The translations under genes were made by a program, and so were the position numbers. A DNA stretch of 64,000 bases from the NCBI GenBank assembly GCA_963854835.1, contig OY978526.1, positions 27,145,073-27,209,072 on the forward strand. Direction: 5' to 3'. Numbering within the stretch: the stretch's first letter is position 1; every line of letters starts with the position of its first letter. The notes under the pieces were generated by a model. It was not told where the DNA came from, did not search any database, and saw only the letters and a list, made by a program, of their open reading frames with translations. Of this stretch, positions 3,396-49,274 are shown piece by piece. Source of the stretch: Megamerina dolium. Taxonomy: Eukaryota; Arthropoda; Insecta; Diptera; Megamerinidae.

Positions 3396-3581
3396 ATGAA
3401 CTTTGCAAAGTTTTTACTACTTTTGTTTGTCTTAGGAGTCGTTTTTCATGCGATTGAAGGATCAAATGGCATCGACGGATTGATTCGTAATATCAGCAAC
3501 GCAATGAATGCGAAAGATGAAAATGGTCAGGACCTACCATGGCATGAAAAATTCCTTAAAGCAGTTGCAAGTGTGGGCTAA
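3396..3581 (+). CDS. Small secreted peptide P1 of the MNFAKF family, unrecognised
   Basis: The product is 61 residues from the ATG at 3396. I chose this start over the upstream in-frame one because every paralogue starts at the same MNFAKF position, directly after a conserved leader. Residues 1 to about 22 form a signal peptide (MNFAKFLLLLFVLGVVF...IEG). The predicted mature part is about 39 residues, with a variable middle and the family C-terminus LPWHEKFLKAVASVG. Here His replaces the Tyr of the other copies. Charge is about -1, so this copy is not clearly cationic. The last residue is Gly, a possible amide donor. There is no intron and no cysteine. A polyadenylation signal AATAAA is at 3625-3630. 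Function is unknown. By size, signal peptide and neighbourhood it could be an antimicrobial or reproductive-tract peptide, which is inference. Confidence 0.85.
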   Translation: MNFAKFLLLLFVLGVVFHAIEGSNGIDGLIRNISNAMNAKDENGQDLPWHEKFLKAVASVG

Positions 3582-3838
3582 AGAACTATCACCAAATTTT
3601 TTGTACGATATTACTGAGAAGATAAATAAAAAATTTTTTTTTAATGAAATTATCGATTTGAATTTTTGTGATAATATTTTTTATCGTACTTACTGTGGGT
3701 GGTAAGGGATTAGCAGATTCGGAAAATAGATTGTTTTTTTCATTTCCAAGACAAAGAGATTGCTGCCGGGAACGTACTTTATGGACCTGGGATCGATGAT
3801 TCAGTGTAAGTTACAAAAAATTTTTTTTCTCACTTTTT
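3582..3838. other. 3' flank of P1
   Basis: This non-coding 3' flank contains the AATAAA at 3625-3630 and T-rich runs. No further gene is visible. Confidence 0.5.
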
Positions 3839-3839
3839 G

Positions 3840-4320
3840 AGAAAAAAAAAAAACTTCAAACGTGTTTTTCTGAAACCCAAGTTTTCGAAGTTCGTGAACA
3901 CGATCCTGCAAAATCTACTCGACCGATTCTTTTTACACTTGAAAAACATACTTTCTTGGTATAAAATACAATAAATCGAATTTGATTGCCAATAAGTGAA
4001 GCCAGTAAGCCACAATAATGTTCACTATTCGCCGTAACAGCTTCTTTTTTGGCATCATCAAAAAAGAATCGCCCAAGGATGCCGCCAACCCACAAGCCAC
4101 ACCAAACAGTAGCTTTTTGAGCATGAAGTGGTTGTTCGTGAGTAACATACGGGGATTTTTCTCCCCAAATACCGCAGCTTTCTTTATTCACATAGCCATT
4201 AAGATGAAAATGAGGTATATTGCCGGAGATGAGTTTTTTTTATGAAAAATTATTTCTTTGTTCTTTGTTCGACGACGTTCCATTGAAAATGTTTCTTCAA
4301 AACGGGTAGTAATTTTGTAA
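3840..4320 (-). mobile_element. Mariner-type transposase remnant
   Basis: Minus-strand frames between 4191 and 3856 carry KATVWCGLWVGGILGRFFFDD, the block around the first catalytic Asp neighbourhood of a mariner-like family, followed by AVTANSEHY. Related text (VTVWCGV...GPYFLEDD...VTVN; CTVWCGLW...FFKDDVGRPVTVNGEHY) occurs in the elements at 33472-34149 and 53033-54158. Only the central part remains and it is frameshifted. Confidence 0.7.
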
Positions 4321-4324
4321 GTTT

Positions 4325-5050
4325 ACGCTGTACGCTGAGTAGGACGATTATGACGACCATATCTATTAGATTCGATATTATTTTAGACACTAATTAATTC
4401 AAACGATATACAATAAATTAATTGTTTCACCCACTTTTATTTTTTTTTTAAATATAAACTATTTTATATACAATATTATACTGGATCGTATTACAATATA
4501 TGGAACATGTCTAAATCCCTTTAGACGAGCCATATGGTTAGTCCCTGAAAGAAGAAAATAAATGAAAGAAACAGAATATACAATGAATTAATAATACGTA
4601 CTTTTACATGAATTTCAATTATACTTACGTTACCCTGATACAAGTTATACTTACCTTACCTTTCATACTTACCATATGGCAACCCAACTCTCCACATAAA
4701 TTCACCTTTTATGTTTTTGGGTATTTCGCGGCTCGTTCTACGATCAACGATGTGTTATTGTTATCATTATTCGGTCCTTAACAAATTTATCGAGATTGTG
4801 CCATTCCGCTCTCTTTTTTCTTAACATAAATTCGAACATTTTTATATACATTTTTTCAATTCGCTTATCACGATATATACTAAATTGTAATCATTTTAAG
4901 TATAGATTGGTGCATGTGAATATATTATCAAAATCTATGCAATAAAATAAACGGTGAAATTATTTAGAACAAAAATAAGTTCTTCAATTTCTTCGAATAT
5001 TTTCTGAGGGCAAAAAACAGGCCGGCACCCTGTAAAAACCGCTAAAACGA
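4325..5050. other. AT-rich stretch, no gene recognised
   Basis: There is no convincing open frame. The sequence includes direct repetition of ACTTACGTTACC/ACTTACCTTACC-like phrases at about 4620-4670. It could be a decayed transposon, but I cannot assign it. Confidence 0.3.
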
Positions 5051-5052
5051 TT

Positions 5053-7095
5053 TTTATACCCTGCATAATGCAATATGCATGGTATATTCATTTCGGTCAG
5101 ATGTTTGTGTCCACTTGAAGGAATCTCCGGAGATATAGACATAGATATATATTCGTAATCAGCGTCGATTAAATTTTCGATTTAACGATGTCCGTCCGTC
5201 CGTCCGCCCGTCTGTCTGTCACCTGGCTGGTTCGCACGATAACTTGAGTAAATATTGAGCTATTTCGACGCACAAGTAACCTATGATCCAAGGGTACGGA
5301 GGGGATTGATATTGGGCATGATCGGTCAATAGCCACGCCCACACCAAGCATTCAAAGCGACTAACCTCGAAAATCTTTAACTTGCTATAACTCACATAAT
5401 ATACCACTTGGGACAACAATATTTTGCACATAGAGTTATATGATACTACTTTATAACCTCGCCAAAAGTGGGTGAGCCACTCCTACTTTTTAGCGTAGCT
5501 CCCATACAAAGTGTCTGTACTTCTTTTAAATTGAAACTGCTGTAACTTCTACAATCTTCTGTCTAGAATAACCATAATTGAAACTTAGATTAACATGGCA
5601 GTAAGAAATAATATGGCAGAAAATCAGTGTGCCACGCCCACTGCTTTTTGGGTCTGCCATAAAAAGTTGCGGAAATTAAACAAAATGTTACCGGTTATAA
5701 CTTGCAAACTATTCAGCGTAGAATAACGAGATTTATGGTGTTGATTAGTATTGTACGAGCAACTAGGCTCACAGGAAATGGGCGCACCACGCCCACTGTT
5801 TATCGTAGCCCCCATACAAATTTTAAATTGAAACAGCTGTAACTTCCGCAATCTTCTGTCTAGAATAACCATAATTGACACATAAATTAACATCATAGTC
5901 GGTAATAATCTGGCATAAAATCAGTGTGCCACGCCCACTCCTTCATGGGTCTCCCATACAAAGTCGAGGGAATTAAACTAAAACTTTTAAGCTCCATAAC
6001 TTACAAACCATTTAGCGTAGGACAACGAGATTTAAGGTATGGATTAGTATTGTACGAGCAATTAGGCTCACAGGAAATAAGCGCGCCACGCCCACTGTTT
6101 TTTGTAGCCCCCATACAAAATGACTGAAATTCTTTTAAATTGAAACAGCCGTACCTTCGGCAATCTTCTGTCCAGAATAACCATAATTGACTCTTAGATT
6201 AACATGCTAGTCGGAAATAATATGACAGAAAATCGGTGTGCCACGACCACTCCTTCATGGGTCTCCCATACAAAGTCGAGGGAATTCAACTTAAACTTTT
6301 AAGTTCCATAACTTACAAACCATTTAGCGTAGGACAACGAGATTTAAGGTATGTATTAATATTGTACGGCAACTAGGCTCACAGGATATGGGCGTGCCAC
6401 GCCCACTGTTTATTGTAGCCCCCATACAAAATGACTGAAATTCTTTTAAATTGAAACAGCTGTAACTTCGGCAATCTTCTGTCTAGAATAACCACAATTG
6501 ACACTTATGGTCTAGACAGACGGCAGCCTAATTCCAGATTATCGAGTTAATTCGAATTAACTCGGGCATTAACTGCAGCTAATCCTCATAAACTCTATTA
6601 GTTAATTCTCAAAATAAAAGAGGATTATGGCAATTTGCGATGGCAACACTGCTGAAAATTGTCTATTGTGAATTTTTCTCCATCCATTTTACAAACCATT
6701 AGGTGTGTTCGCTAACAAAAAACTTTCAACAACTGTTAACAGTTTTCAACATGAAAAGTGTTGGCGAACAAATAAATCCAGCTGTCAATTACGAACGGTG
6801 AATGTCAATTTACAAGACTCTGATAGTTTTCAGTTCACGTACTTCTTGTAGATTTTCTCATATCGAGAGTGATAGATGACAGAAATTGATAGTGATAGTA
6901 ATGTAAGTGGACAGACCTAATAAAACAGCAATCAGCCGTTTAGTTAATCCGCAATACTGCCGTAATCCGGAATTAGGCTGCCGTCTGTCTAGGCTATTAG
7001 ATTAATATCGTAGTCGGATATAACCTCGCAAAAAATCAGTGTGCCACGCCCGCTCCTTCTTGGGTCTCCCATATAAAGTCCACATAAAGGCCACA
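5053..7095 (+). repeat. Long copy of the TATACCCTGC composite repeat with internal ~300-bp repeats
   Basis: It starts TTTTTATACCCTGCATAATG, then a block common to all copies (TTCATTTCGGTCAGATGTTTG, a GTCC microsatellite at 5188-5207, and CACCTGGCTGGTTCGCACGATAACTTGAGTAAATATTGAGC). Several degenerate tandem units of about 290-310 bp follow, each with a GCCACGCCCACT box, a CCCATACAAA box, an AACTTACAAACCATTTAGCGTAGGACAAC box and an AATCTTCTGTCTAGAATAACC box. A MITE is inserted at 6508-6996. There is no coding capacity. The apparent short open frames here are the repeat itself. Confidence 0.8.
6508..6996. mobile_element. MITE with TTA target duplication (PIF/Harbinger-like)
   Basis: A 489-bp insertion in the composite repeat has terminal inverted repeats of about 30 bp containing CTAGACAGACGGCAGCCTAA and then TTCC[AG]GATTA. 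The flanks are TTA on both sides (6505-6507 and 6997-6999). Uninterrupted copies of the host repeat read ACACTTAGATTAA at this place, which supports a 3-bp TTA duplication as made by PIF/Harbinger transposases. It has no open reading frame. An internal hairpin lies around GTGTTCGC...GGCGAAC. Confidence 0.8.
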
Positions 7096-7869: not shown

Positions 7870-8744
7870 GAATTCACAAGTACAAAATATTATTGCATAA
7901 ATTCAAGCAACGCATAATATTCAAAAATTTACCTTTACTAAATGTGCTAAAGCAGCTAATAATGAATTATGTACCCATTTACGAAAACCAACATATTGAC
8001 TGTCAATATTTGAAAGTATCTGAATGTTAAGTAGAAAAGGAGGGAATTTCTTTTAACACAATGAACGAAGGTTAAACGCTAAAATAATATAATAGGTATT
8101 TGCCACAAATTTACAGACATTTGTGCAAATAAAAAATACGATACCTATGTATATAAATATTATAATATTGAAATATACAAGAATGTCGTTGAATGCACAT
8201 TTATTTTACGAATATAAAAATGATGGTTTTTCCAATTTCGTGCAAATATCTTTTGTATCAAATGCAAGTGCAAAAAATGAATACAATATTTGTTTACTTA
8301 CAAATATTGTTGTTAGAAAGATCCATCGGCTATGTATACAAACTGCTCCAATTTAATGAGACTAAGCATCGGCTCCAGTCAATTAATTATGAGCTTCTAT
8401 GTTTTATTGGAAGAAAATTTTATTCAAAATATTGCGATATTCTGTACATTCTTACTTGCATATCACGAAGTATTTTTATTTTTTTTAGCACCTGTATAGC
8501 TTTATATTTGCCAATATTTTGAAACCAAAAAAAATTTTTGTTCACATTTTATATGTTCAACACCCAGGAAATGCCTATATGCATTTAGAAATATTTATAC
8601 CATTAATATTAATAATATGCATTATTAAAAAATTCATTATTGTCTGTTTTTATTCATTTTTCAAATAGATAAAATATAAACATTGCATGCATATGTATAA
8701 ATAAAATATTTTGAAACAATAACCATTTCGGTTTTGGCTTTTTG
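7870..8744 (+). repeat. Upstream spacer of an MNFAKF unit
   Basis: This is the same spacer as 2640-3295 and in the same orientation: it shares CCAATTTCGTGCAAATATCTTTTGTATCAAATGCAAGTG and CACCCAGGAAATGCCTATATG. It leads into the orphan promoter at 8745-8857. The open frames here (8123-8356 and 8193-8522) are not conserved in the sister copy. Confidence 0.7.
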
Positions 8745-8857
8745 ATTGACTCTAACTAATGGCAATAGTATAAATAGAGAGGTTCAATTAGATATTATCA
8801 TTAGTTAATGTTTGAACTTTCAACATCTTTAACGCGAAAAAGAAAAAACTTAACATG
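8745..8857 (+). pseudogene. Orphan promoter of a lost MNFAKF gene, cut at its ATG
   Basis: All promoter parts are present: the box TCTAACTAATGGCAATAG, TATAAATA at 8769-8776, CATTAGTT with the family spacing, and a leader ending CTTTAACGCG...AACTTAAC before an ATG at 8855-8857. Immediately after this ATG the sequence becomes the LINE fragment that is also found at 22885, so the whole coding region is gone. A chimeric frame of 20 codons continues from the ATG into LINE antisense sequence and stops. The junction shares TGA with both partners. Confidence 0.8.
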
Positions 8858-9620
8858 ATCCTTCGCAATATCTCCAGGATGACGTCATTACTGCTGTTAA
8901 TGCTGGTTCCAAGATAGACAAAGTCCCTTACTACTTGTTGACACTAGATACTTCGTCTTGCCCTCGTTCACCGTAAGACCCATTCGACGCGACTCTCTTT
9001 CTAACTCTGAGAATGCTGCACTGACTGCTCGCGTGTTCATGCCGATTATGTCAATATCGTCGGACTACACCAACAGCATGACACTTTTGTTGAAGATAGT
9101 GCCATTATGTCGTAGATCAGCAGCTCGTATTATTTTCTCCATAATAAGATTGAAGAAGTCGCATGATAACGAATCACCTTGTCGAATGAGCTTTGCAGGA
9201 ATACCGGACTCAGACATGGTAGCGTAGAGGTAATCCCTTACCGGACTGTCGAACGCGGCTTTATAATCCACAAATAGGTGGTGTGTGTCGATCTGTTTTT
9301 CTTGGGTCTTCTCCAGGATTTGGCGTAGTGTGAAAATCTGGTCGATGGTGGATTTACCAGGTCTGAAGCCACACTGATACGGTCCAATCAGGTTGCTGAG
9401 CATAGGCTTCAACCTTTCACACAGTACGCTCAATAGAACCTTGTATGCGATACTCAGGAGACTTATTCCACGGTAGTTGGCGCAAATTGTGGGGTCTCCT
9501 TTTTTATGTACAGGACAGAGAACACTGAGTCTCCAATCATCAGGCATGCTTTCATCCGACCATATTCTGCCTATGAGCTGGTGCATGCAGGCAGGCCATT
9601 TGTACAGTCAGTGAGTACAA
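8856..9620 (-). mobile_element. LINE reverse transcriptase fragment (copy 1)
   Basis: The minus-strand frame 9586 to 9065 has reverse transcriptase motifs: KKGDPTICANYRGISLLSIAYK, QCGFRPGKSTIDQIFTLRQI, HHLFVDYKAAFDS (catalytic Asp), and QGDSLSCDFFNLIMEKI. Beyond a stop (8856-9065) the DDIDIIG catalytic pair and MGLTVNEGKTKY continue. The fragment is non-autonomous and internally deleted after IPAKLIR. It is nearly identical to 22885-23650, differing by only a few bases. Its right part abuts the 3' flank of peptide gene P2. Confidence 0.85.
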
Positions 9621-10085
9621 AGGGCAAATATCAGTGACCGAATTATTGTCAAACATTCGAAACATTCTCAAAATGAAAAACACAAAATACTTTAGGGCTG
9701 AAGATGCCCAATGTGATATTTTAGGAAAACAGTGCTCGAAATCTGGTACAAATAGATAAAGTACGAAAGACTCTCAAATTTTTGTGATAAATCATTTAGA
9801 CTGATAATGAAAAACAATTTTATTTAGCAATAATAAAGTAATTTAAAGTCGCAGTACTCCATTCTACTCGTAAGCTATTAAGCTTTCTATTTGCAATCAA
9901 AATATTTATGACAACAAAGGCACTAACCGAATATACATTCTTGTGACTATGACTATACGAAGATTTCGAACGAAGTAAGATAAAAAAGTATCACAGAAAC
10001 TAAATTTGCAAGCTTCATTAAAAAATATATTTTTTTATTTTATGTTTTTACTAATATCGTACAAAATGTGGTGTTGGTTCTTTAC
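9621..10085 (-). other. 3' flank of peptide gene P2
   Basis: This non-coding flank is shared with 23650-24114 (near-identical) and, more diverged, with 16250-16514. It contains TTTATTTAGCAATAATAAAGTAATT and an AAATAAAA polyadenylation-like signal on the minus strand near 10035. Nothing else is recognised. Confidence 0.5.
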
Positions 10086-10331
10086 CTAGCCAAAACTTGC
10101 AACGGCTCTAAGAAGTTTTTTATACCATGGTACTTCTTCAGGCTGTTCATTTTTCGCTTCTGCTGCTTCGACGGCTGCCCCAGCCTTTTCCGCTATACCA
10201 GGAGCGTGTTTTGCCACCTTTTTTGCCACCTTAGATGCAGATTTAAGGGCATTTGAAAGCTTCAATCCTTCGATCGTATTAACAACGACGCCTAAAACCA
10301 ACAAAAGTAGGAAAAACTTTGCAAAGTTCAT
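10086..10331 (-). CDS. Small secreted peptide P2 of the MNFAKF family, cationic
   Basis: The product is 81 residues. Residues 1-22 are a signal peptide ending NTIEG. The predicted mature peptide is about 59 residues with net charge near +5. It has an Ala/Lys-rich N-terminal helix (SNALKSASKVAKKVAKHAPG), an acidic linker (EAAEAKNEQPEE), and the conserved C-terminus VPWYKKLLRAVASFG. The terminal Gly could be converted to an amide. It has no Cys and no intron. The Lys/Ala helix resembles, in composition and spacing of VAKK-type patches, medfly ceratotoxins and other linear antimicrobial peptides, but I do not claim homology. The encoded protein is identical to that at 24115-24360. Promoter and leader match the other family members. 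Confidence 0.88.
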   Translation of the reverse strand: MNFAKFFLLLLVLGVVVNTIEGLKLSNALKSASKVAKKVAKHAPGIAEKAGAAVEAAEAKNEQPEEVPWYKKLLRAVASFG

Positions 10332-10440
10332 GTTAATTTGTTTTCCGCGTTATTAGTGTTGCAAGTTAAAGCATTAACTGATGGTAATATAAAATAAAAT
10401 CTCCCTATTTATACTATCGCCGTTAGTTAGAGTCAATAAT
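10332..10440 (-). promoter_or_regulatory. Core promoter of P2
   Basis: Read on the minus strand: TTGACTCTAACTAACGGCGATAG, then TATAAATA (plus coordinates 10406-10413), then CATCAGTT with the A 34 bases after the first T of the TATA box, and the leader CTTGCAACACTAATAACGCGG. A GATA tetramer directly precedes the TATA box. No kappaB-like site was found in the 200 bp above it. Confidence 0.75.
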
Positions 10441-11345
10441 AATGTCAAATACAGTTGTCAAAATAGCTATTTCTCTTCAAATTTGTTTATTTATCCAAAT
10501 GCCTGCAATGTTTATAAATATATGTATATGTAAGGTACACATTTTAATAATTCATATTATTATTTTCAGTGAATATTTCTGAATACAGATGGGAATTTCC
10601 TGAGTTATTATCGCGACATATATTTAAGCAAAATTTAGAAACAACTGGGTGCCTCTGCACCCGACCAAATATGGAAATGTTTTCTAATATCAATGTGAAA
10701 ATACACAAAATATCACAACATTTTGAAGAAAATTCCTTTTTCTAAACAATATCATTACATAATCTACATAATAATTTCTCTGTAATAGCAGATATTTTGT
10801 AAAAAAATAATAAAATTTTTTAGCTTTTAAAAAGAACCATGAGTCCTCTTCCTCACAAAATATCGAATAGCGAACATCGAATATTGCTAAAAGCTCATGT
10901 TCTAATAGCATGTTCTAATGGCATATCGTTGATCTCTTGTACGTTAATTACAAGAATGAAAATTTCAACAGCTTTCACAGGGATCCTGGAAAATTATTTA
11001 TGCCGCTCATAATCGACTAATATTCAGAAGTTGAAGTCTATATTTTAAGTGTGTCCAAAGTTAATGGGTATAAAAACATTAGAGGAAAAGCTTGGTCTAA
11101 GTACTTTTGAGCTGTTAGTGCCAAATATAATCTTTTTTAAAAGGTACAGACTTGTATGTAAACAAAATGTTTTATTCATTTCTTCATTTGCATTTGATAC
11201 AAAAGGTATTTGCTCTATATTGGGGAAACCATTATTTATACATCCGTAAAATATATTTATATTTATCTAAATATTATTTATTTATATTTTATTTGTACAA
11301 ATGTCTCTAGATTAGTGGTAAATACTTCTAATACTTAATATTTTA
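10441..11345 (-). repeat. Upstream spacer of the P2 unit
   Basis: This spacer is colinear with 24470-25257 plus 28382-28640, where a hAT element interrupts it, and with 17461-18330. It contains the empty site of that hAT insertion: GTGCCAAATATAATC at about 11118-11132 is uninterrupted here. Small indels after 10765 distinguish it from the 24-kb copy. No gene was found. Confidence 0.7.
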
Positions 11346-11481
11346 ACGTTTAACCCTTGCTAACATTTACATTTCCACTTAGATTCGCTATTGGTAAATC
11401 AGTAGCAGTTGAACAACATCTACATTTTACGTATGATATGAATATCCGATCTCACTCGAGTAACATCAGCAATATGATTAG

Positions 11482-11661
11482 CTACATCAGCATTTTAAAC
11501 AGCGCACATTCCATTTCGTTTGCCACATTGACACCTTGTGTAGCTCCTACTTTCAAGCCAATACCACGTAGTTTCAGAATTGGTCCTAAAATTACTTCTG
11601 ATGTATTCAGGATTGCAACGAATAATATGAAAGCTGTTAGAAATTTTCCAAAATTCATCAT
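11482..11661 (-). pseudogene. MMNFGKF-family secreted peptide Q1, damaged
   Basis: A 59-codon open frame begins MMNFGKFLTAFILFVAILNT, a signal-peptide-like stretch with the same MNF.KF opening as the P peptides and cecropins. Compared with the sister at 28715-28948 it lacks eight codons (24 bp) of a Lys-rich segment in the middle, and it ends early at a TAG where the sister has TAC. A LINE is inserted about 30 bp upstream of its start, which probably removed its promoter. It is likely a pseudogene. An expressed short peptide cannot be excluded. Confidence 0.6.
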
Positions 11662-16514: not shown

Positions 16515-16703
16515 TTACCCTAGAACACTTGTAAAGGCTTTAATAACTGTTTTATACCATGGGTCATCTATTGCTTGGAGGGCTTCCAAAGTCTTTTTGT
16601 CTAAACCAGAAGCTTTAACGGCATCTGAAATCTCGAATCCTTCGATCGTATTAAAAACGACACCTAAGACCAACAAAAGGAGGAAAAACTTTGCAAAGTT
16701 CAT
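16515..16703 (-). CDS. Small secreted peptide P3 of the MNFAKF family, acidic variant
   Basis: The product is 62 residues. The signal peptide is nearly identical to that of P2 and P5 (MNFAKFFLLLLVLGVVFNTI, then EG). The mature part of about 40 residues has diverged completely: it begins FEISDAVKASGLDKK, is rich in Asp and Glu (charge about -1), and then returns to the family C-terminus DPWYKTVIKAFTSVLG with terminal Gly. This shows that the signal peptide and C-terminal block are constrained while the middle is free. Promoter with TATAAATA at 16778-16785 (minus) is intact. No intron, no Cys. Function unknown. Confidence 0.85.
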   Translation of the reverse strand: MNFAKFFLLLLVLGVVFNTIEGFEISDAVKASGLDKKTLEALQAIDDPWYKTVIKAFTSVLG

Positions 16704-16810: not shown

Positions 16811-16892
16811 ATAATGTCAAATACAGTTGTCAAAATAGATATTTATCTTCAAAATTTTTTATTTATACAAATGCCTGCAATGTATGTATATA

Positions 16893-17460
16893 AAAGGTGC
16901 GACAAATATGTATTAAGACTCGAACCATATCTTAGCAACCAAGCGAGCGCCATCTATGTGTGAGTACATGCGTTTTGAAGCTTCAACCTTCCTCTGCTAA
17001 CTGTCAAAATTTCATGGCATTTGGTTGACATTTATTGTTTATTGACATTAATTTTACAAAACACGTGTTCGTTTGATGTTGAAATTTTAACATGAAATTT
17101 AACACACAGCACTCATTGTTCGTCAATTTTTGGCTCGGAATCAGGTCTGTGTGTTGAATTACCCTCCGTATTCACCTGATTTGGCACCGTGCGACTTCTT
17201 TTTGTTCCCAAAACTGAAATTGAAGTTGAAAGGATGCTTTTTTGATGACATTCAGACCATACAACGGGCTTGGAAGAGGGCACTGGAGGCAATTCCGAAA
17301 AATGAGCTGGAACACGCGTTTGAATCACTATTAAATCGATGTAACAAGTGTACTGAATCAGGAGGAGAATATTTCGAATAAATATACCGAAAAATTAGCA
17401 TATATCGTGTTTTAATTGTGTTTTCGAGAGGCAGTCTTAATACATAATTGTCGCTCCTTG
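16893..17460 (+). mobile_element. Internally deleted mariner element with TA duplication
   Basis: The terminal inverted repeats read AAGG[TA]GCGACAA[AT]TATGTATT then AAGACT, and TA dinucleotides flank both ends (16891-16892 and 17461-17462). Inside remains only the transposase C-terminus, open at 17130-17381: NYPPYSPDLAPCDFFLFPKL and NELEHAFESLLNRCNKC. It is inserted in the upstream spacer of P3. The sister units at 10530 and 24560 lack it. A second copy lies at 44517-45386. Confidence 0.85.
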
Positions 17461-18335
17461 TATGTATATGTAAGTTACACATTTTAATAATTCATATTAT
17501 TATTTTCAGTGAATATTTCTGAATACAGATGGGAATTTCCTGAGTTATTATCGCGACATATATTTAAGCAAAATTTAGAAACAACTGGGTGCCTCTGCAC
17601 CCGACCAAATATGGAAAGGTTTTCTAATATCAATGTGAAAATACACAAAATATCACAACATTTTGAAGAAAATTCCTTTTTCTAAACAATATCATTACAT
17701 AATCTACTTGCCCTATGGGATCATCTTCTTCAGTTTCGTACACAGATGTAAAAATAGTGATGAGTAATAACGGACGTGACAAATTTTTCTCTTACAGCAT
17801 TAAATTACAGATAAGTGTACGAAATATTAATAAATTATCTATAATGTATGTACCATATATTTAGTAAAAAACTAAAAAAAAAAAATTATTTATTTATAAA
17901 AACCATAAGTCCTCTTCCTCACAAAATATCGAATAGCGAACAGTATAACTTATATTGCTAAAAGCGATCATGCTTGAATGGCATATCGTTGATCTTTTGT
18001 ACATTAATTACAAGGATGGACATTTCAACAGCTTTCACAGGATTCTGAAAAATTATTTATGCCGCTCATAATTGACTAATATCAGAAGTTAAAGTCTGTC
18101 TTTTAAGCGTGTCCAAATTTAATGTGTATAGAAACATTACTGGTACTGACTTCTTCATTTCTTCATTTGCATTTGATATAAAAGATATTTGCACAAAATT
18201 GGGAAACCCATTATTTATATGTCCGTAAAATATATATCTAAATATATTTATTTATATTTTATTTATACAAATGTCTCTAGATTAGTGGTAAATACTTCTA
18301 ATAATATTTTAACGTTTAACCCTGGTTCATTGTGG
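17461..18335 (-). repeat. Upstream spacer of the P3 unit, continued
   Basis: This is colinear with 10540-11340 and 24570-25260, including the phrase GTGCCTCTGCACCCGACCAAATATGGAAA. It ends at about 18335 where the TATACCCTGC repeat begins. No gene was found. Confidence 0.65.
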
Positions 18336-22669: not shown

Positions 22670-23650
22670 CATCTCTGCTCTTCGCTAGCTTTGAAGCGTA
22701 GAGCAGAGATGGCTGGTAAAGATATTACGTAGGACTTTTCTCTCGAAAACTCCAAGCATTCGCTCATCCGAGGTCGTTAGGACAGTCATGATGAGAGACT
22801 TGTAGAGTGTAGTTTTCATTCTTCGAGAGAGAGCTCGACTTCTCAATTGCTTACTTATCCCAAAGTAGCACCTGTTTGCAAGAGTGATCCTTCGCAATAT
22901 CTCCAGGATGACGTCATTACTGCTGTTAATGCTGGTTCCAAGATAGACAAAGTCCCTTACTACTTGTTGACACTAGATACTTCGTCTTGCCCTCGTTCAC
23001 CGTAAGACCCATTCGACGAGACTCTCTTTCTAACTCTGAGAATGCTGCACTGACTGCTCGCGTGTTCATGCCGATTATGTCAATATCGTCGGACTACACC
23101 AACAGCATGACACTTTTGTTGAAGATAGTGCCATTATGTCGTAGATCAGCAGCTCGTATTATTTTCTCCATAATAAGATTGAAGAAGTCGCATGATAACG
23201 AATCACCTTGTCGAATGAGCTTTGCAGGAATACCGGACTCAGACATGGTTGCGTAGAGGTAATCCCTTACCGGACTGTCAAACGCGGCTTTATAATCCAC
23301 AAATAGGTGGTGTGTGTCGATCTGTTTTTCTTGGGTCTTCTCCAGGATATGGCGTAGTGTGAAAATCTGGTCGATGGTGGATTTACCAGGTCTGAAGCCA
23401 CACTGATACGGTCCAATCAGGTTGCTGAGCATAGGCTTCAACCTTTCACACAGTACGCTCAATAGAACCTTGTATGCGATACTCAGGAGACTTATTCCAC
23501 GGTAGTTGGCGCAAATTGTGGGGTCTCCTTTTTTATGTACAGGACAGAGAACACTGAGTCTCCAATCATCAGGCATGCTTTCATCCGACCATATTCTGCC
23601 TATGAGCTGGTGCATGCAGGCAGGCCATTTGTACAGTCAGTGAGTACAAA
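22670..23650 (-). mobile_element. LINE reverse transcriptase fragment (copy 2, longer)
   Basis: From 22885 to 23650 this matches 8856-9620 almost base for base. It continues further left with RT C-terminal text on the minus strand (ANRCYFGISKQLRSRALSRR, then KTTLYKSLI and LGVFERKVLRNIF), which shows what copy 1 lost at its junction. The minus-strand frame 23615 to 23094 holds the RT core. Confidence 0.85.
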
Positions 23651-24114
23651 GGGCAAATATCAGTGACCGAATTATTGTCAAACATTCGAAACATTCTCAA
23701 AATGAAAAACACAAAATACTTTAGGGCTGAAGATGCCCAATGTGATATTTTAGGAAAACAGTGCTCGAAATCTGGTACAAATAGATAAAGTACGAAAGAC
23801 TCTCAAATTTTTGTGATAAATCATTTAGACTGATAATGAAAAACAATTTTATTTAGCAATAATAAAGTAATTTAAAGTCGCAGTACTCCATTCTACTCGT
23901 AAGCTATTAAGCTTTCTATTTGCAATCAAAATATTTATGACAACAAAGGCACTAACCGAATATACATTCTTGTGACTATGACTATACGAAGATTTCGAAC
24001 GAAGTAAGATAAAAAAGTATCACAGAAACTAAATTTGCAAGCTTCATTAAAAAATATATTTTTTTATTTTATGTTTTTACTAATATCGTACAAAATGTGG
24101 TGTTGGTTCTTTAC
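23651..24114 (-). other. 3' flank of peptide gene P4
   Basis: This non-coding flank is near-identical to 9622-10085. No additional gene is seen. Confidence 0.5.
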
Positions 24115-24360
24115 CTAGCCAAAACTTGCAACGGCTCTAAGAAGTTTTTTATACCATGGTACTTCTTCAGGCTGTTCATTTTTCGCTTCTGCTGCTTCGA
24201 CGGCTGCCCCAGCCTTTTCCGCTATACCAGGAGCGTGTTTTGCCACCTTTTTTGCCACCTTAGATGCAGATTTAAGGGCATTTGAAAGCTTCAATCCTTC
24301 GATCGTATTAACAACGACGCCTAAAACCAACAAAAGTAGGAAAAACTTTGCAAAGTTCAT
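24115..24360 (-). CDS. Small secreted peptide P4, protein identical to P2
   Basis: The product is 81 residues, with the same amino acid sequence as the gene at 10086-10331: signal peptide 1-22, cationic Ala/Lys helix, acidic linker and VPWYKKLLRAVASFG end. The nucleotide match extends over the promoter, the 3' flank and the neighbouring LINE fragment at a constant offset of 14029 bases, with only scattered substitutions. It is either a very young gene copy or a doubly assembled haplotype. The flanks differ outside 22885 to about 24785 (for example hAT insertion, indels), which argues for two real loci. Confidence 0.85.
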   Translation of the reverse strand: MNFAKFFLLLLVLGVVVNTIEGLKLSNALKSASKVAKKVAKHAPGIAEKAGAAVEAAEAKNEQPEEVPWYKKLLRAVASFG

Positions 24361-24470
24361 GTTAATTTGTTTTCCGCGTTATTAGTGTTGCAAGTTAAAG
24401 CATTAACTGATGGTAATATAAAATAAAATCTCCCTATTTATACTATCGCCGTTAGTTAGAGTCAATAATA
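24361..24470 (-). promoter_or_regulatory. Core promoter of P4
   Basis: TATAAATA is at 24435-24442 (minus), with a CATCAGTT initiator and TAATAACGCGG leader. It appears identical to the P2 promoter. Confidence 0.75.
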
Positions 24471-25257
24471 ATGTCAAATACAGTTGTCAAAATAGCTATT
24501 TCTCTTCAAATTTGTTTATTTATCCAAATGCCTGCAATGTTTATAAATATATGTATATGTAAGGTACACATTTTAATAATTCATATTATTATTTTCAGTG
24601 AATATTTCTGAATACAGATGGGAATTTCCTGAGTTATTATCGCGACATATATTTAAGCAAAATTTAGAAACAACTGGGTGCCTCTGCACCCGACCAAATA
24701 TGGAAATGTTTTCTAATATCAATGTGAAAATACACAAAATATCACAACATTTTGAAGAATATTCCTTTTTCTAAACATGGGTAAATTTAGTTAAAACAAT
24801 ATCATTACATAATCTACTTGTCCTATGAGAGGTTTCGTACAAACGATGTAAAAACAGTGATGAGTAATAACGGACGTGACAAATTTTTCTCTTACAACAT
24901 AAAATTTCAGAAAAGTGTACTACATATTAATAAATTATCTATAATGTATGTACCAGATATTTTGTAAAAAAAAATAAAAAAACCATGAGTCCTCTTCCTC
25001 ACAAAATATCGAATCACGAACAATATAACTTATATTGCTACAAGGGATCATGCTTTAATGGCATATCGTTGATCTCTTGTCCGTTAATTACAAGAATGAA
25101 AATTTCAACAGCTTTCACAGGGATCCTGGAAAATTATTTATGCCGCTCATAATCGACTAATATTCAGAAGTTGAAGTCTATATTTTAAGTGTGTCCAAAG
25201 TTAATGGGTATAAAAACATTAGAGGAAAAGCTTGGTCTAAGTACTTTTGAGCTGTTA
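24471..25257 (-). repeat. Upstream spacer of the P4 unit, part 1
   Basis: This is colinear with 10441-11117. It carries about 90 additional bases (24830-24970) that copy 1 lacks but the unit at 17700-17870 has. So copy 1 has a deletion. Confidence 0.65.
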
Positions 25258-28714: not shown

Positions 28715-28948
28715 TCACTCGAGTAACATCAGCGGTATTATTAGGTAGATCAGCATTTTAAACAACGCTTTTCCAGCATTATTTGTAGCCTTTTTACCTA
28801 TTTTCTTTGCCATTTTGACACCTGGTGTAGCTCCTACTTTCAAGTCAATAGCAAGTAGTTTCTAAATTGATCCTAAAAGTGCTTCTGATGTATTCAAGAT
28901 TGCAACGAATAACCTGAAAGCTCTTAGAAATTTTCCAAAATTCATCAT
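28715..28948 (-). pseudogene. MMNFGKF-family secreted peptide Q2, premature stop
   Basis: A 78-codon frame opens MMNFGKFLRAFRLFVAILNT, with an in-frame TAG at codon 29. After the stop a strongly cationic stretch continues (VKMAKKIGKKATNNAGKALF) and then a hydrophobic end before TGA. The Lys-rich segment is what Q1 (11482-11661) lost. The ancestral product was probably a signal-peptide-bearing cationic peptide. In this copy the stop leaves only the signal-like part. Function unknown. Confidence 0.65.
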
Positions 28949-28949
28949 A

Positions 28950-38287: not shown

Positions 38288-38355
38288 TTGAGAGATGAGA
38301 ATGGTGGGGCAACCCGTTGTGGGAGCCAGCTCACGCCCCTTGGAACTGGCTCGTT

Positions 38356-39651: not shown

Positions 39652-39682
39652 TTTTTTAAGCAATCCCACCGCTGTCACCAAT

Positions 39683-42515: not shown

Positions 42516-44421
42516 GTAGAGATATATATAAAAAGTTTGCTCGTATATCCATCCTTTTCTTCGACTACTTTGTATAGGACCTACATTAAGAAGCAGGCGT
42601 ACCTCACCAATTTTGGATAATCAATTTCTGCCTATAATACTAAACTACATAGGTTGCAATGGGTTGACCTAGGCGTATTAATTAGTAAATTATGGGTGTT
42701 TTAATGTTTAAGATAAATCCGAGACTTTGTACGGAAGCTATATAAAAAGTGGGCGTGACGTATCTCTTTCTGGTATATCTAATTAATTTTTCAATATCAA
42801 TCTACACCTTAAATTTGGTTGTCCTACGCTAAATGGTTTGTAAGTTATGGAGCTTAAAAGTTTTAGTTTAATTCCCTCGACTTTGTATTGCGTGGCACAC
42901 TGATTTTCTGCCAGATTATTTCCGACTACGATATTAATCTAAGTGTCAATTATGGTTATTTTAGGCAGGAGATTGCCGAAGTTACAGCTGTTTAAATTTA
43001 AAAGAATTTCAGTCATTTTGTATGGGGGCTGCAATAAACAGTGGGCATGGCGCATCCATTTCCTATGAGCCTAGTTGCTCGTACAATACTAATCCATACC
43101 TTAAATCTCGTTGTCCTACGCTAAATGGTTTGTAAGTTATGGAGCTTAAAAGTTTTAGTTTAATTCCCTTGACTTTGTATGGGAGACTCATTAAGGAGTG
43201 GGCGTGGCACACTGATTTTCTGCCAGATTTTTGCCGACTACGATATTAATCTAAGTGTCAATTATGGTTATTCTAGACAGAAGATTGCCGAAGTTACAGC
43301 TGTTTCAATTTAAAATTTGTATGGGGGCTGCAATAAACAGTGGGCGTGGTGCGCCCATTTTCTGTGAGCCCAGTTGCTCGTACAATACTAATCCATACCT
43401 TAAATCTCGTTGTCGTACGCTAAATGGTTTGTAAGTTATGGAGCTTAAAAGTTTTAGTTTAATTCCCTTGACTTTGTATGGGAGACTCATGAAGGAGTGG
43501 GCGTGGCACACTGATTTTCTGTCAGATTTTTGCCGACTACGATATTAATTTATGTGTCAATTATGGTTATTCTAGACAGAAGATTGCCGAAGTTACAGCT
43601 GTTTCAATTTAAAATTTGTATAGGGGCTACGATAAATAATGGGCGTGGTGCGCCCATTTTCTGTGAGCCTAGTTGCTTGTACAATACTAATCCACACCTT
43701 AAATCTCGTTATTCTACGCTGAATAGTTTGCAAGTTATAACCGGTAACATTTTTTTAATTTCCGCAACTTTGTATAGGAGACCCAAAAAGGAGTGGGCGT
43801 GGCACACTGATTTTCTACCATATTATTTCCGACTACCATGTTAATCTAAGTGTCAATTATGGTTATTCGGGACAGAAGATTGTAGAAGTTACAGCTGTTT
43901 CAATTTAAAAGAAGTACAGACACTTTGTATGAGAGCTACACTAAAAAGTAGGCGTGGCTCAACCACTTTTGGTGAGGTTATATAGTAGTATAATATAAGT
44001 CTATGTGCCAAATATTGTTGTCCCAAGTGGTATATTATGTGAGTTATAGCAAGTTAAAGATTTTGAAAATTTCGAGGTTAGTCGCTTTGAATGCTTGGTG
44101 TGGGCGTGGTTATTGACCGATCATTCCCAATATCAATCCTCTCCGTACTCTTGGATCATAGATTACTTATGCCAAATTTCATCGAAATAGCTCAATATTT
44201 ACTCAAGTTATCGTGCGAACCAGCCAGGTGACAGACAGACGGACGGACGGACGGACGGACGGACGGACGGACGGACATCGTTAAATCGAAAATTTAATCG
44301 ACGCTGATCACGAATATATATCTATGTCTATATCTCCGGAGATTCCTTCAAGTGGACACAAACGTCTGACCGAAATGAATATACCATGCATATTGCATTA
44401 TGCAGGGTATAAAAAGCACGA
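42490..44421 (-). repeat. Long, well-bounded TATACCCTGC composite repeat
   Basis: One end is GGCCGACCAAATTATACCCT, then GCATATGTAG. The other is CATTATGCAGGGTATAAAAA, so both ends carry the same motif in inverted orientation. Internal units of about 290-310 bp repeat four to five times, with GGGCGTGGCACACTGATTTTC, TTTGTATGGGAG[CA]C and GTTGTCCTACGCTAAATGG. A GGAC microsatellite lies at 44239-44275. The open frames at 43305 and 43530 are the repeat read through. Confidence 0.8.
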
Positions 44422-44516
44422 CGAAGTAAATTATTACCTCACGCAGTGTCTATCCGGCCATGGCTACTTTAAAAAATATTTGAATCGTATGTGAAAATCA
44501 GACCAACCACGATATA

Positions 44517-45386
44517 CAAGGTCCGACAAATATGTAGAAGACTCGAACCATATCTCAGCAACCAAGCGTGTCATCTATATGTGAGCACATGCATTTTGAA
44601 GCTTCAACCTTTCTCTACTAACTGTCAAAATTTCATGGCATTTGGTTGACATTTAATCGACGATGCCCCGTGTTCAGCAACAATTGCCTAGCAAGGGGAT
44701 TCGGATGACTGTGTAATTTTTGAATGTAGCTTCTGCAAGACATTGCAACTTCCTCAGAAATTGTGGGTACATTTAAATCTCGATGGATGTTAACGTTCCT
44801 CATATACATACCAAGGCGCGTTTACAATAATTCGCAGACACTTGGATTGTATTCGCTGCAATTTTTCGATATTTGAGGGAGATGCGGTGCCCCAAAACTG
44901 AATACCATAAGTCCAGATTGGCTTCAGGATTGCTTTATATAATGTTTAATGTTTATTGACATTCATTTAACAAAACACGTGTTCGTTTGATGTTGAAATT
45001 TTAACATGGAGCAAAGAGAGAAAAAAGTCACACAGCACTCATTGTTCGTCAATTTTTGGCTCGGAATCAGGTCTGTGTGTTGAATTACCCTCCGTATTCA
45101 CCTGATTTGGCACCGTGCGACTTCTTTTTGTTCCCAAAACTGAAATTGAAGTTGAAAGGATGCTTTTTTGATGACATTCAGACCATACAACGGGCTTGGA
45201 AGAGGGCAGTGGGGGCAATTCCGATAAATGAGCTGGAACACGTGTTTGAATCACTATAAAATCGATGTAACAAGTGTATTGAATCAGGAGCAGAATATTT
45301 CGAATAAATATACCGAAAAATTAGCAGATATCGTGTTTTAATTGTGTTTTTTAGAGGCAGTCTTAATATATAATTGTCGCACCGTG
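44517..45386 (+). mobile_element. Mariner remnant with nested Jockey fragment
   Basis: This is the same family as 16893-17460. It starts CAAGGTCCGACAAATATGTA and ends TTGTCGCACCGTG, flanked by TA (44515-44516, 45387-45388). The transposase C-terminus NYPPYSPDLAPCDFFLFPKL is at 45080-45140. A LINE piece is inserted at about 44657-44945. Confidence 0.85.
44657..44945 (-). mobile_element. Jockey-type LINE 3' fragment nested in mariner
   Basis: The minus strand of this stretch matches the 3' part of the Jockey element at 50440-50670: GCACCGCATCTCCCTCAAAT and TGTACCCACAATTTCT. The sister mariner copy at 17024 runs uninterrupted through this point (GGTTGACATTTATTGTTTATTG). Confidence 0.75.
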
Positions 45387-45394
45387 TATATATT

Positions 45395-47111: not shown

Positions 47112-47119
47112 TTACTACG

Positions 47120-47460
47120 CCTAATACTGCTGCAAAATGTTGCCAAATTTTTTTTTCATTGTTCTCATTATTTATCATTGCAAAAACAAATACATATATG
47201 AACTGGCTATATAGTAAATACATAAGTAAGCTATGAGTAAGTATATAAATATGTACATGCATACATGCACATACGCATATGTGGAACTAACACAATTGAA
47301 GATCTCTTTCGAAAGTCTTTGAAGCGATTTTAAATATTTTCTATTTAAATATCGTTAATTATTTGCCATGTGGAAACCGTTTAGAAAAATAAAAGTTTGT
47401 GTTTCAAATTAGGGAAGCACATGTATAGAAAGGCAAGCACAAAGTACTTGCCATATATGA
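47120..47460. other. AT-rich upstream flank of peptide gene R
   Basis: This stretch is simple AT-rich with ACATGCATAC-type runs at 47250-47280. Nothing else is recognised. Confidence 0.35.
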
Positions 47461-47466
47461 TATATA

Positions 47467-48569
47467 AGGTGTAGTAAAATCCTTTATTTTTGCATTAAAT
47501 TGAAGGTTTTATTTAGCATAGTTAGAATGATCCGATTTAGGTCAAATATGCACCGTTTTGTTCGATAACTTGTTGCCATTTTGAAGGTAATTTCATAATG
47601 CCACTCTCTTAGACACACTCATCCCTATTGGCAAAATACTGGGACAGTCGATTTTCACAAGCTTCTCTTGAGGCGAATTTATGACCAGCAAAATCATTCG
47701 CCATAGACAGGAACAGGTAGTAATTACTTGGTGGCAGGTCCGGACTATAAGGTGGATGCATAAGAACCTTCCAACCAAGCTCCCGGAGCTTCTGGCGAGT
47801 CACTATCGCTGTGTGTGGCCTGGCGTTGCCCTGATAGAACACAATTCCTCTCCTATTGGCCAAAGCTGGCCGCTTCTGGGCGATTGCTTCCTTGAGGCGG
47901 TCCAATTGTTGACAGTCCGAATTAAGAGTTTGGCCGTAGGGGAGCAGCTCATAGTAGATGATTCCCTGCCAATCACACCAAACACATTGCAAAACCTTCC
48001 TGACCGTCAATCCTAGCTTGGCGCTTGACGTTGTCATAAGTAACCGACTTTTCATCACCAGTAACCATCCGCTTTAGAAATGGATCGATTTTGTTGCGAT
48101 TCAGCAGCGATTCGCAGATGGAAATTCGGTCCATGATATTTTTTGCGTTAACTCGTGTGGCACCGAACTTCTTTTTGTACCCAGCCTTATTTAAATGGTT
48201 CCAAACGGTTTTTTGTGCAATGTTTAGCTCCTGAGCAATAAAAACAGTGCTTACATGACGGTCAGACTCGACGATTTCCATTATTTTATCGATATTTTTG
48301 ACAATTGGCGTTCCAGATTGTGGTGCATCTTTGACATCAAAATAACCGGAACGGAATCGACGGCTGTTACACTATCAGGACCATAAACACTATTCACAAT
48401 TTCGTCTGTCTGGCTTGCGCTTTCGTCTTTATCGAAGAAAAACTGTAAAATATGGAGTAATTTCTCTTTCTAACGCCATCTAGTGTAACCCGATTGCACT
48501 TATACAAAGCGAGATACAGATTATAAAGCCATCTATTGGAAAAATAATGGATTTCTTTTTACTACACCT
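47467..48569 (-). mobile_element. Near-complete mariner with TA duplication, broken transposase
   Basis: Termini are AGGTGTAGTAAAA and TTTTACTACACCT, flanked by TA (47465-47466, 48570-48571). It is 1103 bp. The transposase on the minus strand has helix-turn-helix text STVFIAQELNIAQKTVWNHL, VTGDEKSVTYDN (first catalytic Asp), GNARPHTAIVTRQKLRELGW with the second motif, and PPYSPDLPPSNYYLFLSM with the position of the third. Frames 48281-47973 and 48058-47609 overlap but differ, so there is at least one frameshift. The fragment at 1412-1790 belongs to the same family. Confidence 0.9.
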
Positions 48570-48719
48570 TATATATAAGGTGAGTTAAACGTATGGAACA
48601 AAATATTGAATAGCTTAGCGAAAAAAACAAAATCGTAATAATTTCAAACACATCTTCTCAAGGAAGCATAACGAAATTCCTGGCTTCAGTTTTTAAGTTG
48701 TTTAAAAAATATAAGTTTT

Positions 48720-48965
48720 ATATGAAAGAGCGCTATCCACCCGTCGGCAAGCAATTGACAATTCGTGTGCATAAGTACCCAGTTGTCTTTAAATGTTGCT
48801 TAAATATATATGTCGCGACAGTAACCCAGGAAATTCCAATATATATTCAAAAATAATAATATGCATTATTAAAAAATTTATAATTATCATATCTTTTTGA
48901 TATAAACTTTACAGGCATTTGTATCAATACAATTTTTTTATAAGAAATAACTACTTAGACATCTG
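48720..48965 (+). repeat. Spacer of the P5 unit
   Basis: This matches the other plus-oriented spacers (ACCCAGGAAATTCC; AATAATATGCATTATTAAAAAATT). A short SINE body piece (CACCCGTCGGCAAGCAATTG) lies at 48738-48757. Confidence 0.6.
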
Positions 48966-49046
48966 TATAAATAGTGAGGTTCTATTTTATACTAACATCA
49001 GTTAATGCTTTAACTCGCAACACCAATAACGCGGAATAAAATTAAC
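48966..49046 (+). promoter_or_regulatory. Core promoter of P5
   Basis: TATAAATA is at 48966-48973, a CATCAGTT initiator has its A 34 bases after the first T of TATA, and the leader reads CTCGCAACACCAATAACGCGG. The upstream TCTAACTAAYGGC box of the other members is not recognisable here. Confidence 0.75.
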
Positions 49047-49274
49047 ATGAACTTTGCAAAGTTTTTCCTTCTTTTATTGGTCTTAGGTGTCGTTTTTAAT
49101 ACGATTGAAGGATCGAGGTTTACAAATCTCTTAAAATCATCTAAGGTGATTAAAAAACACGCTCCTGGTATAGCGGAAAAGGTTGGTGATGTCGCCCAAG
49201 CAATAGATGCGAAAGAGGAGGAAGAGAAACCATGGTATAAAAAATTGTTTGGAACCATTGCAAGTTTTGGCTAG
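49047..49274 (+). CDS. Small secreted peptide P5 of the MNFAKF family, cationic
   Basis: The product is 75 residues. The signal peptide 1-22 is identical to that of P3 (MNFAKFFLLLLVLGVVFNTI, then EG). The mature part has net charge about +3: SRFTNLLKSSKVIKKHAPGI helix, AEKVGDVAQAIDAK, an acidic run EEEE, then the conserved end KPWYKKLFGTIASFG with terminal Gly. The block KKHAPGIAEK is closely related to VAKHAPGIAEK of P2, so P5 and P2 share a recent ancestor in the middle region too. An AATAAA signal follows about 50 bp downstream (near 49323). This copy is the one nearest the cecropin cluster. Confidence 0.88.
   Translation: MNFAKFFLLLLVLGVVFNTIEGSRFTNLLKSSKVIKKHAPGIAEKVGDVAQAIDAKEEEEKPWYKKLFGTIASFG

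Follow-up and report, generated by a model that had tools for sequence, protein, structure and literature searches.

The peptide gene array and its surroundings

The window, by which is meant the whole stretch of 64,000 nucleotides that was analysed, carries an array of single-exon open reading frames (ORFs) that encode precursors of 61-81 amino acids (P1 to P5), accompanied by a truncated sixth copy, a duplicated segment, an inserted repeat and a second peptide family (Table 1). The five ORFs are real and homologous to one another, with tblastn cross-matches inside the window at E-values from 5e-11 to 6e-49. The count of five intact genes in a preliminary description of this DNA holds for the ORFs but not for the proteins: since the coding sequences of P2 and P4 are identical, there are four distinct proteins.

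Table 1. Features of the array, with positions counted from the first letter of the window
Feature	Position (strand)	Description	TATA	Initiator	AATAAA	Mature charge
P1	3396..3581 (+)	intact; precursor 61 aa	3313	3345	3625	-1
P2	10086..10331 (-)	intact; precursor 81 aa	10413	10381	10039	+5
P3	16515..16703 (-)	intact; precursor 62 aa	16785	16753	16472	-1
P4	24115..24360 (-)	intact; coding sequence identical to P2	24442	24410		+5
P5	49047..49274 (+)	intact; precursor 75 aa	48966	48998	49322	+3
Sixth copy, truncated	8716..8868 (+)	upstream region, TATA, initiator and 5'UTR to about the start codon; nhmmer E 2e-26	8769
Segmental duplication, copy 1	8856..10748	1893 bp, holds P2; 99.7% identical to copy 2
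Segmental duplication, copy 2	22885..24777	holds P4
Inserted repeat	16888..17467	looks mariner-like by eye; identity of 90-93% with 44512-44655 and 44945-45393
M1	11485..11658 (-)	ORF from a second family of secreted peptides (MNFGKFL...); located about 1.3 kb 5' of P2
M2	28748..28945 (-)	another MNFGKFL copy, interrupted by an in-frame stop after 27 codons; lies 5' of P4
GGAAATKCC motif	10592..10600 (-)	upstream of P2
GGAAATKCC, homologous sites	3089, 8567, 17532, 24621, 48829	P1, truncated copy, P3 region, P4 and P5, respectively

The motif TATAAATAG and an initiator are present in all five intact genes, in each of which the TATA-to-ATG distance is 81-83 nt, the 5'UTR is 47-49 nt long and AATAAA lies 42-47 nt past the stop codon. 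Because a pattern consisting of TATAAATAGNGAGRTT and TYAGTTAAT, which was composed from the aligned copies themselves, occurs once per copy in all six copies as compared to no occurrence in 100 shuffles, the resemblance within the array is not due to chance. Upstream of the copies there is also an NF-kB-like motif, GGAAATKCC. It is found six times against an expected 1.0, a count to be read with the pattern having been drawn post hoc from the alignment and the copies being homologous, and the broader consensus GGGRNNYYCC shows no enrichment, with 4 occurrences where 3.09 are expected. The site belonging to P3 has been displaced by an insertion.

The segmental duplication that contains P2 and P4 may be an assembly duplicate. 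On its 3' side the truncated sixth copy meets the segment that extends from 8856 onward, which also carries a reverse-transcriptase fragment, and the inserted repeat splits the core promoter of P3 from its upstream region. Transposon-type ORFs are located between the peptide gene copies, and the Hermes transposase DNA-binding domain gives a Pfam match in the window that is just over the cut-off (E 2.6e-4) and would fit a dipteran source. Within the second family, M1 is without 24 bases that M2 has, and the region 5' of its start is unlike that of M2. The characterization of the locus as a degenerating gene array is a fair one, because this second, degenerate family sits within it.

That these small secreted peptides form a family without a Pfam match over the cut-off is supported. 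The Pfam-A cecropin profile gave no match up to E=10 with any of the four distinct precursors or the four mature peptides, in a search that a distant relation may have escaped, since the HMMER filters drop many weak matches; nothing was found below E=1 in the PDB (3 and 2 matches, E 1 to 6.1); and the protein database returned nothing at E up to 10 with P2 (2 candidates) or with the peptide alignment (1207 candidates), and no candidate for the peptide from the ORF at 55393. Scans with the alignment produced 95 pattern matches in viral contigs and 62 in genome contigs, none of which was confirmed. The string 'MNFAKF' is absent from the searched literature, and Rfam and tRNA scans of the window found nothing. 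The blank searches are weak evidence of novelty, because the collections, by their own descriptions, hold few insect sequences. Several candidate matches were rejected: an acidic ribosomal protein for P2 (Pfam E 0.013, with 16.4 bits where the cut-off is 28.1), and, both at chance level over 12 residues, the only matches of antimicrobial type, Cupiennin for P2 (E 0.96 and 0.18) and a frog-skin signal/propeptide for P1 (E 2.2). The sub-threshold Pfam matches to GOLGA2L5 (P2), DUF5690 (P5) and DUF4969 (ORF at 55393) were set aside.

The mature peptides and their divergence

The 22 N-terminal residues, the presumed signal peptide, are hydrophobic and nearly constant in all five genes; the mature part that follows them has 39-59 residues, is free of cysteine and ends in Gly in all five ORFs. 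The net charges reported earlier, -1 for P1 and P3 and +5 for P2 and P4, are correct, and that of P5 is +3. The C-terminal pattern that had been proposed, PW[YH].K, breaks down on P3 (PWYKT...), and the alignment yields PW[YH][KE]xxx[KRG]xxxSx(1-2)G, in which the invariant final Gly had previously gone unremarked. The further claim that the C-terminus is conserved is not supported in the usual sense of the word: its pooled dN/dS is 1.39, invariance is limited to P, W, a single Ser and the terminal Gly, and over the 13 codons of the block P2 and P3 differ by 7 nonsynonymous changes, with 0 synonymous ones.

When compared with composition shuffles, the C-terminal helix is amphipathic with p = 0.033 in P1, 0.008 in P2, 0.001 in P3 and 0.067 in P5, while the middle region is amphipathic beyond shuffles in P1 and P2 (p 0.005) and not in P3 (0.65) or P5 (0.15). 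The argument that retained amphipathicity is a sign of constraint was dropped, because in a null simulation the C-terminal block proved no better at preserving its amphipathicity and charge than expected under random nonsynonymous change (joint probability 0.09-0.59 across six comparisons). The AlphaFold model of mature P2 has three helices at low confidence (pLDDT 61.5). A cationic amphipathic helix followed by a Gly/Pro hinge and a second helix is suggested by sequence in P2 and P5, and for P2 also in this low-confidence model; the arrangement is absent in P1 and P3.

The mature parts of P2 and P3 have diverged far beyond their near flanks, which are almost identical, and they have done so almost wholly by amino-acid change, with a signal peptide that is near constant. 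Over the 38 aligned codons of the mature region there are 28 nonsynonymous changes (of 87.7 sites) and 1 synonymous change (of 26.3) by NG86 (Fisher p=0.0038), a ratio that strengthens the earlier view of these products as fast-evolving effector peptides. Across the 12 gap placements with the fewest differences, the middle region has 20-22 nonsynonymous changes and 1 synonymous change. The last codons of P3 are offset in frame by one base relative to P2, and the Gly is still terminal. When dN/dS is computed by region with NG86, the pooled value is 0.19 for the signal peptide, which is constrained, and 1.75 for the middle, which is fast, as the preliminary description had anticipated.

In 18 pairwise maximum-likelihood tests, which share sequences, omega for the mature region is at its bound in P2-P3 (p=0.0002) and 13.6 in P3-P5 (p=0.0038), and the remaining four of the six mature pairs have values of about 1 (0.99-1.47) that are not significant. 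The signal-peptide omega is 0.00-0.11 among P2, P3 and P5, with 0.11 for P2-P3, and 0.51-0.98 in the three pairs involving P1, which is not different from 1. The strong selection signal rests on P3, because the other mature pairs are near 1 and the P1 signal pairs are not below 1.

Flanking divergence, recombination and possible functions

The flanks of P2 and P3 show how the contrast with the mature region depends upon distance. The near flanks differ at 8 of 273 sites and the wider flanks (10769 to 9860, coding excluded) at 26 of 653; identity in the nearer flanks is 98.8% and 92.5% upstream and 97.6% just downstream, and farther out it is 84.0% on the 5' side (35 of 219 sites differ) and 84.6% on the 3' side (6 of 39). 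The synonymous divergence of the coding sequence is 4/41, compared to 8/273 in the near flanks (p=0.057). Because the far flanks differ more, and because synonymous divergence is somewhat greater than that of the near flanks, homogenisation or exchange of the near flanks makes part of the P2-P3 contrast.

It might be supposed that recombination makes all of it. This account, which competes as an explanation of the divergence and not of function, would have the coding cassette of P3 be old and its near flanks replaced by those of P2 in gene conversion, under selection of an ordinary kind. It would fit the patchy flank identity (92.5-98.8% near, about 84% far), and also a conflict between regions: the near flanks, with identities of 96-98% for P2-P3 and, for P2-P5, 89% between TATA and ATG, 81% on the downstream side and 42% 5' of TATA (a stretch in which P5 is without some bases), group P2 with P3, while the middle is closer for P2-P5 (77%) than for P2-P3 (72%), at odds with those relationships. 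Homogenisation has been invoked for the small secreted salivary gland proteins (SSSGPs) of the Hessian fly as well, in the account given by PMC2955719. An old cassette should, however, hold many synonymous changes, and the mature regions of P2 and P3 show 1 such change in 26 sites, as against 9 in 34 for P2-P5; the changes are mostly at codon positions 1 and 2 (18 and 7) with few at position 3 (4); and the mature nonsynonymous divergence, 28/88, is twice that of the far flanks, 41/258. Recombination alone is considered rather unlikely.

As regards function, we tentatively favour reading the array, from its sequence, as a set of genes without introns whose products are secreted helical peptides of the host-defence kind, diversifying and of antimicrobial type; this seems quite possible, if short of probable. 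Signal peptidase would cleave off residues 1-22 and the C-terminal Gly would be converted to an amide, after which the peptide would form amphipathic helices on membranes and attack those of microbes. In P2 and P5 a basic helix would be joined through an A-P-G hinge to a second one, followed, as in all copies, by a short PW-led helix, which in the acidic P1 and P3 would be the one weakly cationic part left. Change would be driven by an arms race against microbes, and the near flanks may stay alike in part through short tracts of gene conversion. The occurrence of GGAAATKCC upstream of all six copies counts for the host-defence reading, and its post hoc status counts against it, as does the charge of -1 in P1 and P3, because typical antimicrobial peptides (AMPs) differ in this respect. 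Also against it are the lack of a Pfam match over the cut-off and of a PDB match below E=1, with Cupiennin and the frog-skin signal/propeptide, at chance level, as the nearest approach to a known antimicrobial family. A more specific proposal, which must be called doubtful, is that these are an unreported family of amidated three-helix host-defence peptides under very strong positive selection that includes charge reversal between paralogues, with gene conversion keeping the promoter, UTRs and signal peptide alike. That such a family would bring the SSSGP mode of evolution into the insect antimicrobial arsenal is an analogy to which we likewise give rather little credence.

Secreted peptides that change rapidly could also serve other ends. 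They could be salivary or feeding effectors, released into a host, plant or animal, as an SSSGP-like arsenal with host resistance driving the change; the array matches the Hessian-fly SSSGP-1 pattern of one inverted copy beside tandem ones, two copies that are identical, a promoter, UTRs and signal peptide that are conserved, and a diversified mature part, but SSSGP-1, as described, has an intron and tighter spacing, with seven genes in 15 kb (PMC2955719), and the peptides in the window are short, helical by prediction and provided with a terminal Gly. This role is judged unlikely. Reproductive-tract peptides, either antibacterial and ceratotoxin-like or of the seminal fluid, and changing through sexual conflict or egg protection, appear distinctly unlikely. 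Rapid change is common among reproductive proteins, and helix 1 of P2 may resemble the ceratotoxins, but Ala- and Lys-rich helices look alike by composition, and ceratotoxin precursors have a pro-segment between the signal and the mature peptide, of which none is evident in the precursors of the window. The ceratotoxins themselves are a seven-gene antibacterial family of the female accessory glands, by the account in PMC5034548. Finally, the copies could be relics without function, genes that are being lost from a transposon-rich region under relaxed constraint. The truncated sixth copy, the stop in M2, the insertion upstream of P3, the transposon-type ORFs and an omega of about 1 in four of six mature pairs are all consistent with such decay, but five frames are open, the low signal-peptide omega among P2, P3 and P5 indicates constraint, and the core promoter and AATAAA are retained in all five genes, which makes decay without function improbable.

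Comparison with known systems

Among the dipteran cecropins, the black-fly peptide SibaCec shares the plan of the window peptides, with a 22-residue signal, a mature peptide and a C-terminal Gly for amidation (PMC4620007). More generally, the described signals of 22-25 residues and the putative cationic helix-hinge-helix of P2 and P5 are points of likeness (PMC4620007, PMC11819587), and the C-terminal Gly, a putative amidation signal, is present in all five ORFs. The Trp that cecropins have at mature position 1 or 2, which is not universal and is absent in SibaCec (PMC4620007), is not seen here, where the sole Trp lies in the PW block. The structure of two exons and one intron that is reported for the tsetse stomoxyn locus (PMC11819587) is likewise not found, the ORFs being uninterrupted and TATA standing 81-83 nt upstream. 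Unlike cecropins, the window peptides carry an additional C-terminal segment, which is led by PW and preceded by an acidic stretch, are strongly diversified and include anionic members.

By description, the ceratotoxins of Ceratitis are similar in being a lineage-restricted small multigene antibacterial family in a fly, which was called unique to the medfly and some other Ceratitis species in 2016 (PMC5034548). Fish piscidins, a vertebrate family with a pro domain for which no sequence relation is claimed, resemble the window peptides in that the signal peptide varies less while positive selection has diversified the amphipathic mature peptide, according to PMC2830478. Drosophila AMPs are reported not to be fast-evolving, unlike immune signalling genes and the AMPs of vertebrates and social insects, with DptC as one diversifying branch (PMC5078906). 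If the window peptides are immune effectors, a family in which two duplicates share near flanks that are almost the same and yet differ by 28 nonsynonymous changes to 1 synonymous change would depart strongly from the Drosophila pattern.

The Hessian-fly SSSGPs are comparable by description: they form mixed-orientation clusters that include an identical pair, with conserved promoter, UTRs and signal and a diversified mature region (PMC2955719). The same conservation is found here for the near flanks, with farther flanks that are less alike, and a mature dN/dS above 1, which reaches 18.8 in SSSGP groups (PMC2955719), is found in P2-P3 and P3-P5. The SSSGP-1 genes contain an intron (introns are lacking in one SSSGP group) and have longer mature regions, at 252-484 nt, while the window genes are intronless; salivary expression has been shown for SSSGPs (PMC2955719), and the window peptides, known from their genes, are distinguished by a terminal Gly and amphipathic segments. 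In 2010 the SSSGP authors stated that the pattern had been found in no other organism (PMC2955719); should the window peptides prove to be effectors of feeding or reproduction, gall midges would not be alone in showing it.

The gene array and its surroundings

The peptide gene family proposed in the preliminary description is real, and its five open reading frames (P1 to P5) lie at the positions claimed, all have lengths within the claimed 61-81 residues, and are homologous to one another when compared within the window. The coding sequences of P2 and P4 are identical, and both genes are contained in a 1893-bp duplication whose copies are 99.7% identical, so the family comprises four distinct proteins. 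A search of the window with a profile of the gene region returns the five genes and one extra piece, which stops at about the start codon; the next-best match has an E value of 0.27.

All five genes have a TATA box 81-83 nt upstream of the ATG, an initiator A 34 nt past the point where that box begins, a predicted 5'UTR of 47-49 nt, and AATAAA 42-47 nt beyond the stop codon; the reading frames are uninterrupted, and an intron is therefore not required. The combined TATA and initiator pattern, which was derived from the alignment of the copies, occurs six times in the window, exactly at the six copies, and in 0 of 100 shuffles. The motif GGAAATKCC, which is NF-kB-like by comparison with such consensus motifs, has 6 sites in the window against 1.0 expected, one upstream of each copy, at 218-307 nt before the ATG in P1, P2, P4 and P5 and pushed farther off in P3 by an inserted repeat. 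As evidence of NF-kB-like sites this is suggestive only: the sites lie in upstream regions that are homologous to one another, the motif was picked post hoc, and the window shows no enrichment of the general form GGGRNNYYCC (4 sites against 3.09 expected; three of the four are the P2, P3 and P4 sites).

A large part of the remaining window looks transposon-derived, and Pfam matches were obtained for six of the ten reading frames submitted. Interleaved with the P family is a second family of secreted peptides (MNFGKFL...), whose copies M1 and M2 are, with their flanks, 87% identical over 11116-11678 and 28380-28965. Between the two families the signal regions show weak similarity (best tblastn E 0.007), a hint that the families may share an origin. 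The units of the tandem arrays are related to repeats inside 5051-6507.

Features of the window
Feature	Positions	Strand	Remarks
P1	3396-3581	+
P2	10086-10331	-
P3	16515-16703	-
P4	24115-24360	-
P5	49047-49274	+
Truncated P-family copy	8716-8868	+
M1	11485-11658	-	degenerate; upstream of P2
M2	28748-28945	-	degenerate; upstream of P4; stop after 27 codons
Gypsy-type retrotransposon	35687-39681 (35687-38287 and 38359-39681)	-	Pfam; gag-like reading frame with SAP domain and zinc knuckle
Two reverse-transcriptase fragments			Pfam
Mariner-type transposase fragment	47612-48058		Pfam
Reading frame matching Hermes DNA-binding domain			barely above Pfam cut-off
Tandem array, ~300-bp unit	43017-43910		period 299, 3 copies
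Tandem array, ~300-bp unit	32269-32879		period 312, 2 copies
Lone secreted-looking reading frame, 69 aa	46808-47017	-	by eye, preceded by a TATA box and an initiator-like motif; nothing above Pfam cut-off
Lone reading frame, 97 aa, signal-like N-terminus	55100-55393	-	nothing above Pfam cut-off; no homologue in protein database search

Architecture of the predicted peptides

Residues 1-22 are nearly invariant across the P family and, judged by eye, look like a signal peptide. The mature part that follows has 39-59 residues, no cysteine, and a net charge of -1 in P1 and P3, +5 in P2 and P4, and +3 in P5. In P2 and P5 it consists, in order, of a lysine-rich stretch, H-A-P-G, a second stretch, an acidic stretch and a C-terminal segment led by PW; the first basic stretch is missing from P1 and P3. 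The final residue is glycine in all five, including P3, whose last codons (16515-16530, minus strand) have undergone a one-base frame change relative to P2 and still place glycine before the stop. Such a terminal glycine is found in the precursors from which amidated peptides are made; the black-fly cecropin SibaCec, for example, has a 22-residue signal and a 34-residue mature peptide with C-terminal glycine (PMC4620007).

In the four distinct copies the amphipathicity of the PW-led segment exceeds that of composition-matched shuffles (p 0.001-0.067), and that of the middle region does so in P1 and P2 (p 0.005) and not in P3 (0.65) or P5 (0.15). A null simulation with nonsynonymous changes placed at random did not show special retention of amphipathicity in the PW-led segment. 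An AlphaFold model of P2, computed from a four-sequence alignment, has three helices at low confidence (pLDDT 61.5, pTM 0.26).

Divergence between P2 and P3

The suspicion of rapid evolution in the preliminary description was right: for one pair or more, change in the mature region exceeds that in its own near flanks several-fold and is almost solely at the protein level. With gap columns left out, the near flanks of P2 and P3 differ at 8 of 273 sites (upstream 2/65, TATA to ATG 3/82, downstream 3/126). The wider flanks (10769 to 9860, without coding sequence) differ at 26 of 653, and the farther flanks at 35 of 219 sites (5') and 6 of 39 (3'), so that the flanks are a patchwork with near-identity close to the gene. 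The 38 aligned codons of the mature region carry 28 nonsynonymous changes against 1 synonymous change (Fisher p=0.0038), with 18, 7 and 4 changes at codon positions 1, 2 and 3. This excess is independent of gap placement: for the middle region, the 12 placements that minimise differences yield 20-22 nonsynonymous changes to 1 synonymous, and the 21 gap-free codons adjoining the two ends give 12 to 0 (p=0.053).

In pairwise codon maximum likelihood (kappa fixed at 2), omega for the mature region is at the upper bound for P2-P3 (p=0.0002) and 13.6 for P3-P5 (p=0.0038), while the remaining four pairs give 0.99-1.47, not significant. The tests number 18 over three regions and share sequences; the two p values become about 0.001 and 0.02 when multiplied by 6, and about 0.004 and 0.07 when multiplied by 18. 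Over the full coding region of P2-P3 omega is 3.09 (p=0.039). Among P2, P3 and P5 the signal peptide evolves under purifying selection (omega 0.00-0.11); in pairs with P1 its omega, 0.51-0.98, does not differ from 1.

Selection, recombination and known systems

Conversion or cassette exchange would produce both the patchy flank identity and the disagreement between regions, in which the near flanks group P2 and P3 as sisters and the middle region places P2 slightly closer to P5 (77% identity) than to P3 (72%). An old cassette, however, should be old at synonymous sites too, and those of the mature region carry 1 change in 26; with all coding sequence taken together, 4 of 41 synonymous sites differ, compared with 8 of 273 near-flank sites (p=0.057). 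Nonsynonymous divergence of the mature region (28/88) exceeds that of the near flanks about tenfold and is double that of the far flanks. We read these data as pointing to strong selection and near-flank homogenisation acting jointly on P2 and P3, a reading in which the case for selection depends on a single lineage, P3. The same pair of forces is proposed by Chen and colleagues (PMC2955719) for the small secreted salivary gland proteins (SSSGPs) of the Hessian fly.

The family appears to be a new combination, uniting an evolutionary mode and a peptide plan, each known elsewhere, in intronless genes without a match in the collections searched, which by their descriptions hold few insect sequences. 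The mode is shared with the salivary genes of gall midges, where it is already known, and the plan resembles that of linear amidated antimicrobial peptides, amidation here being only putative.
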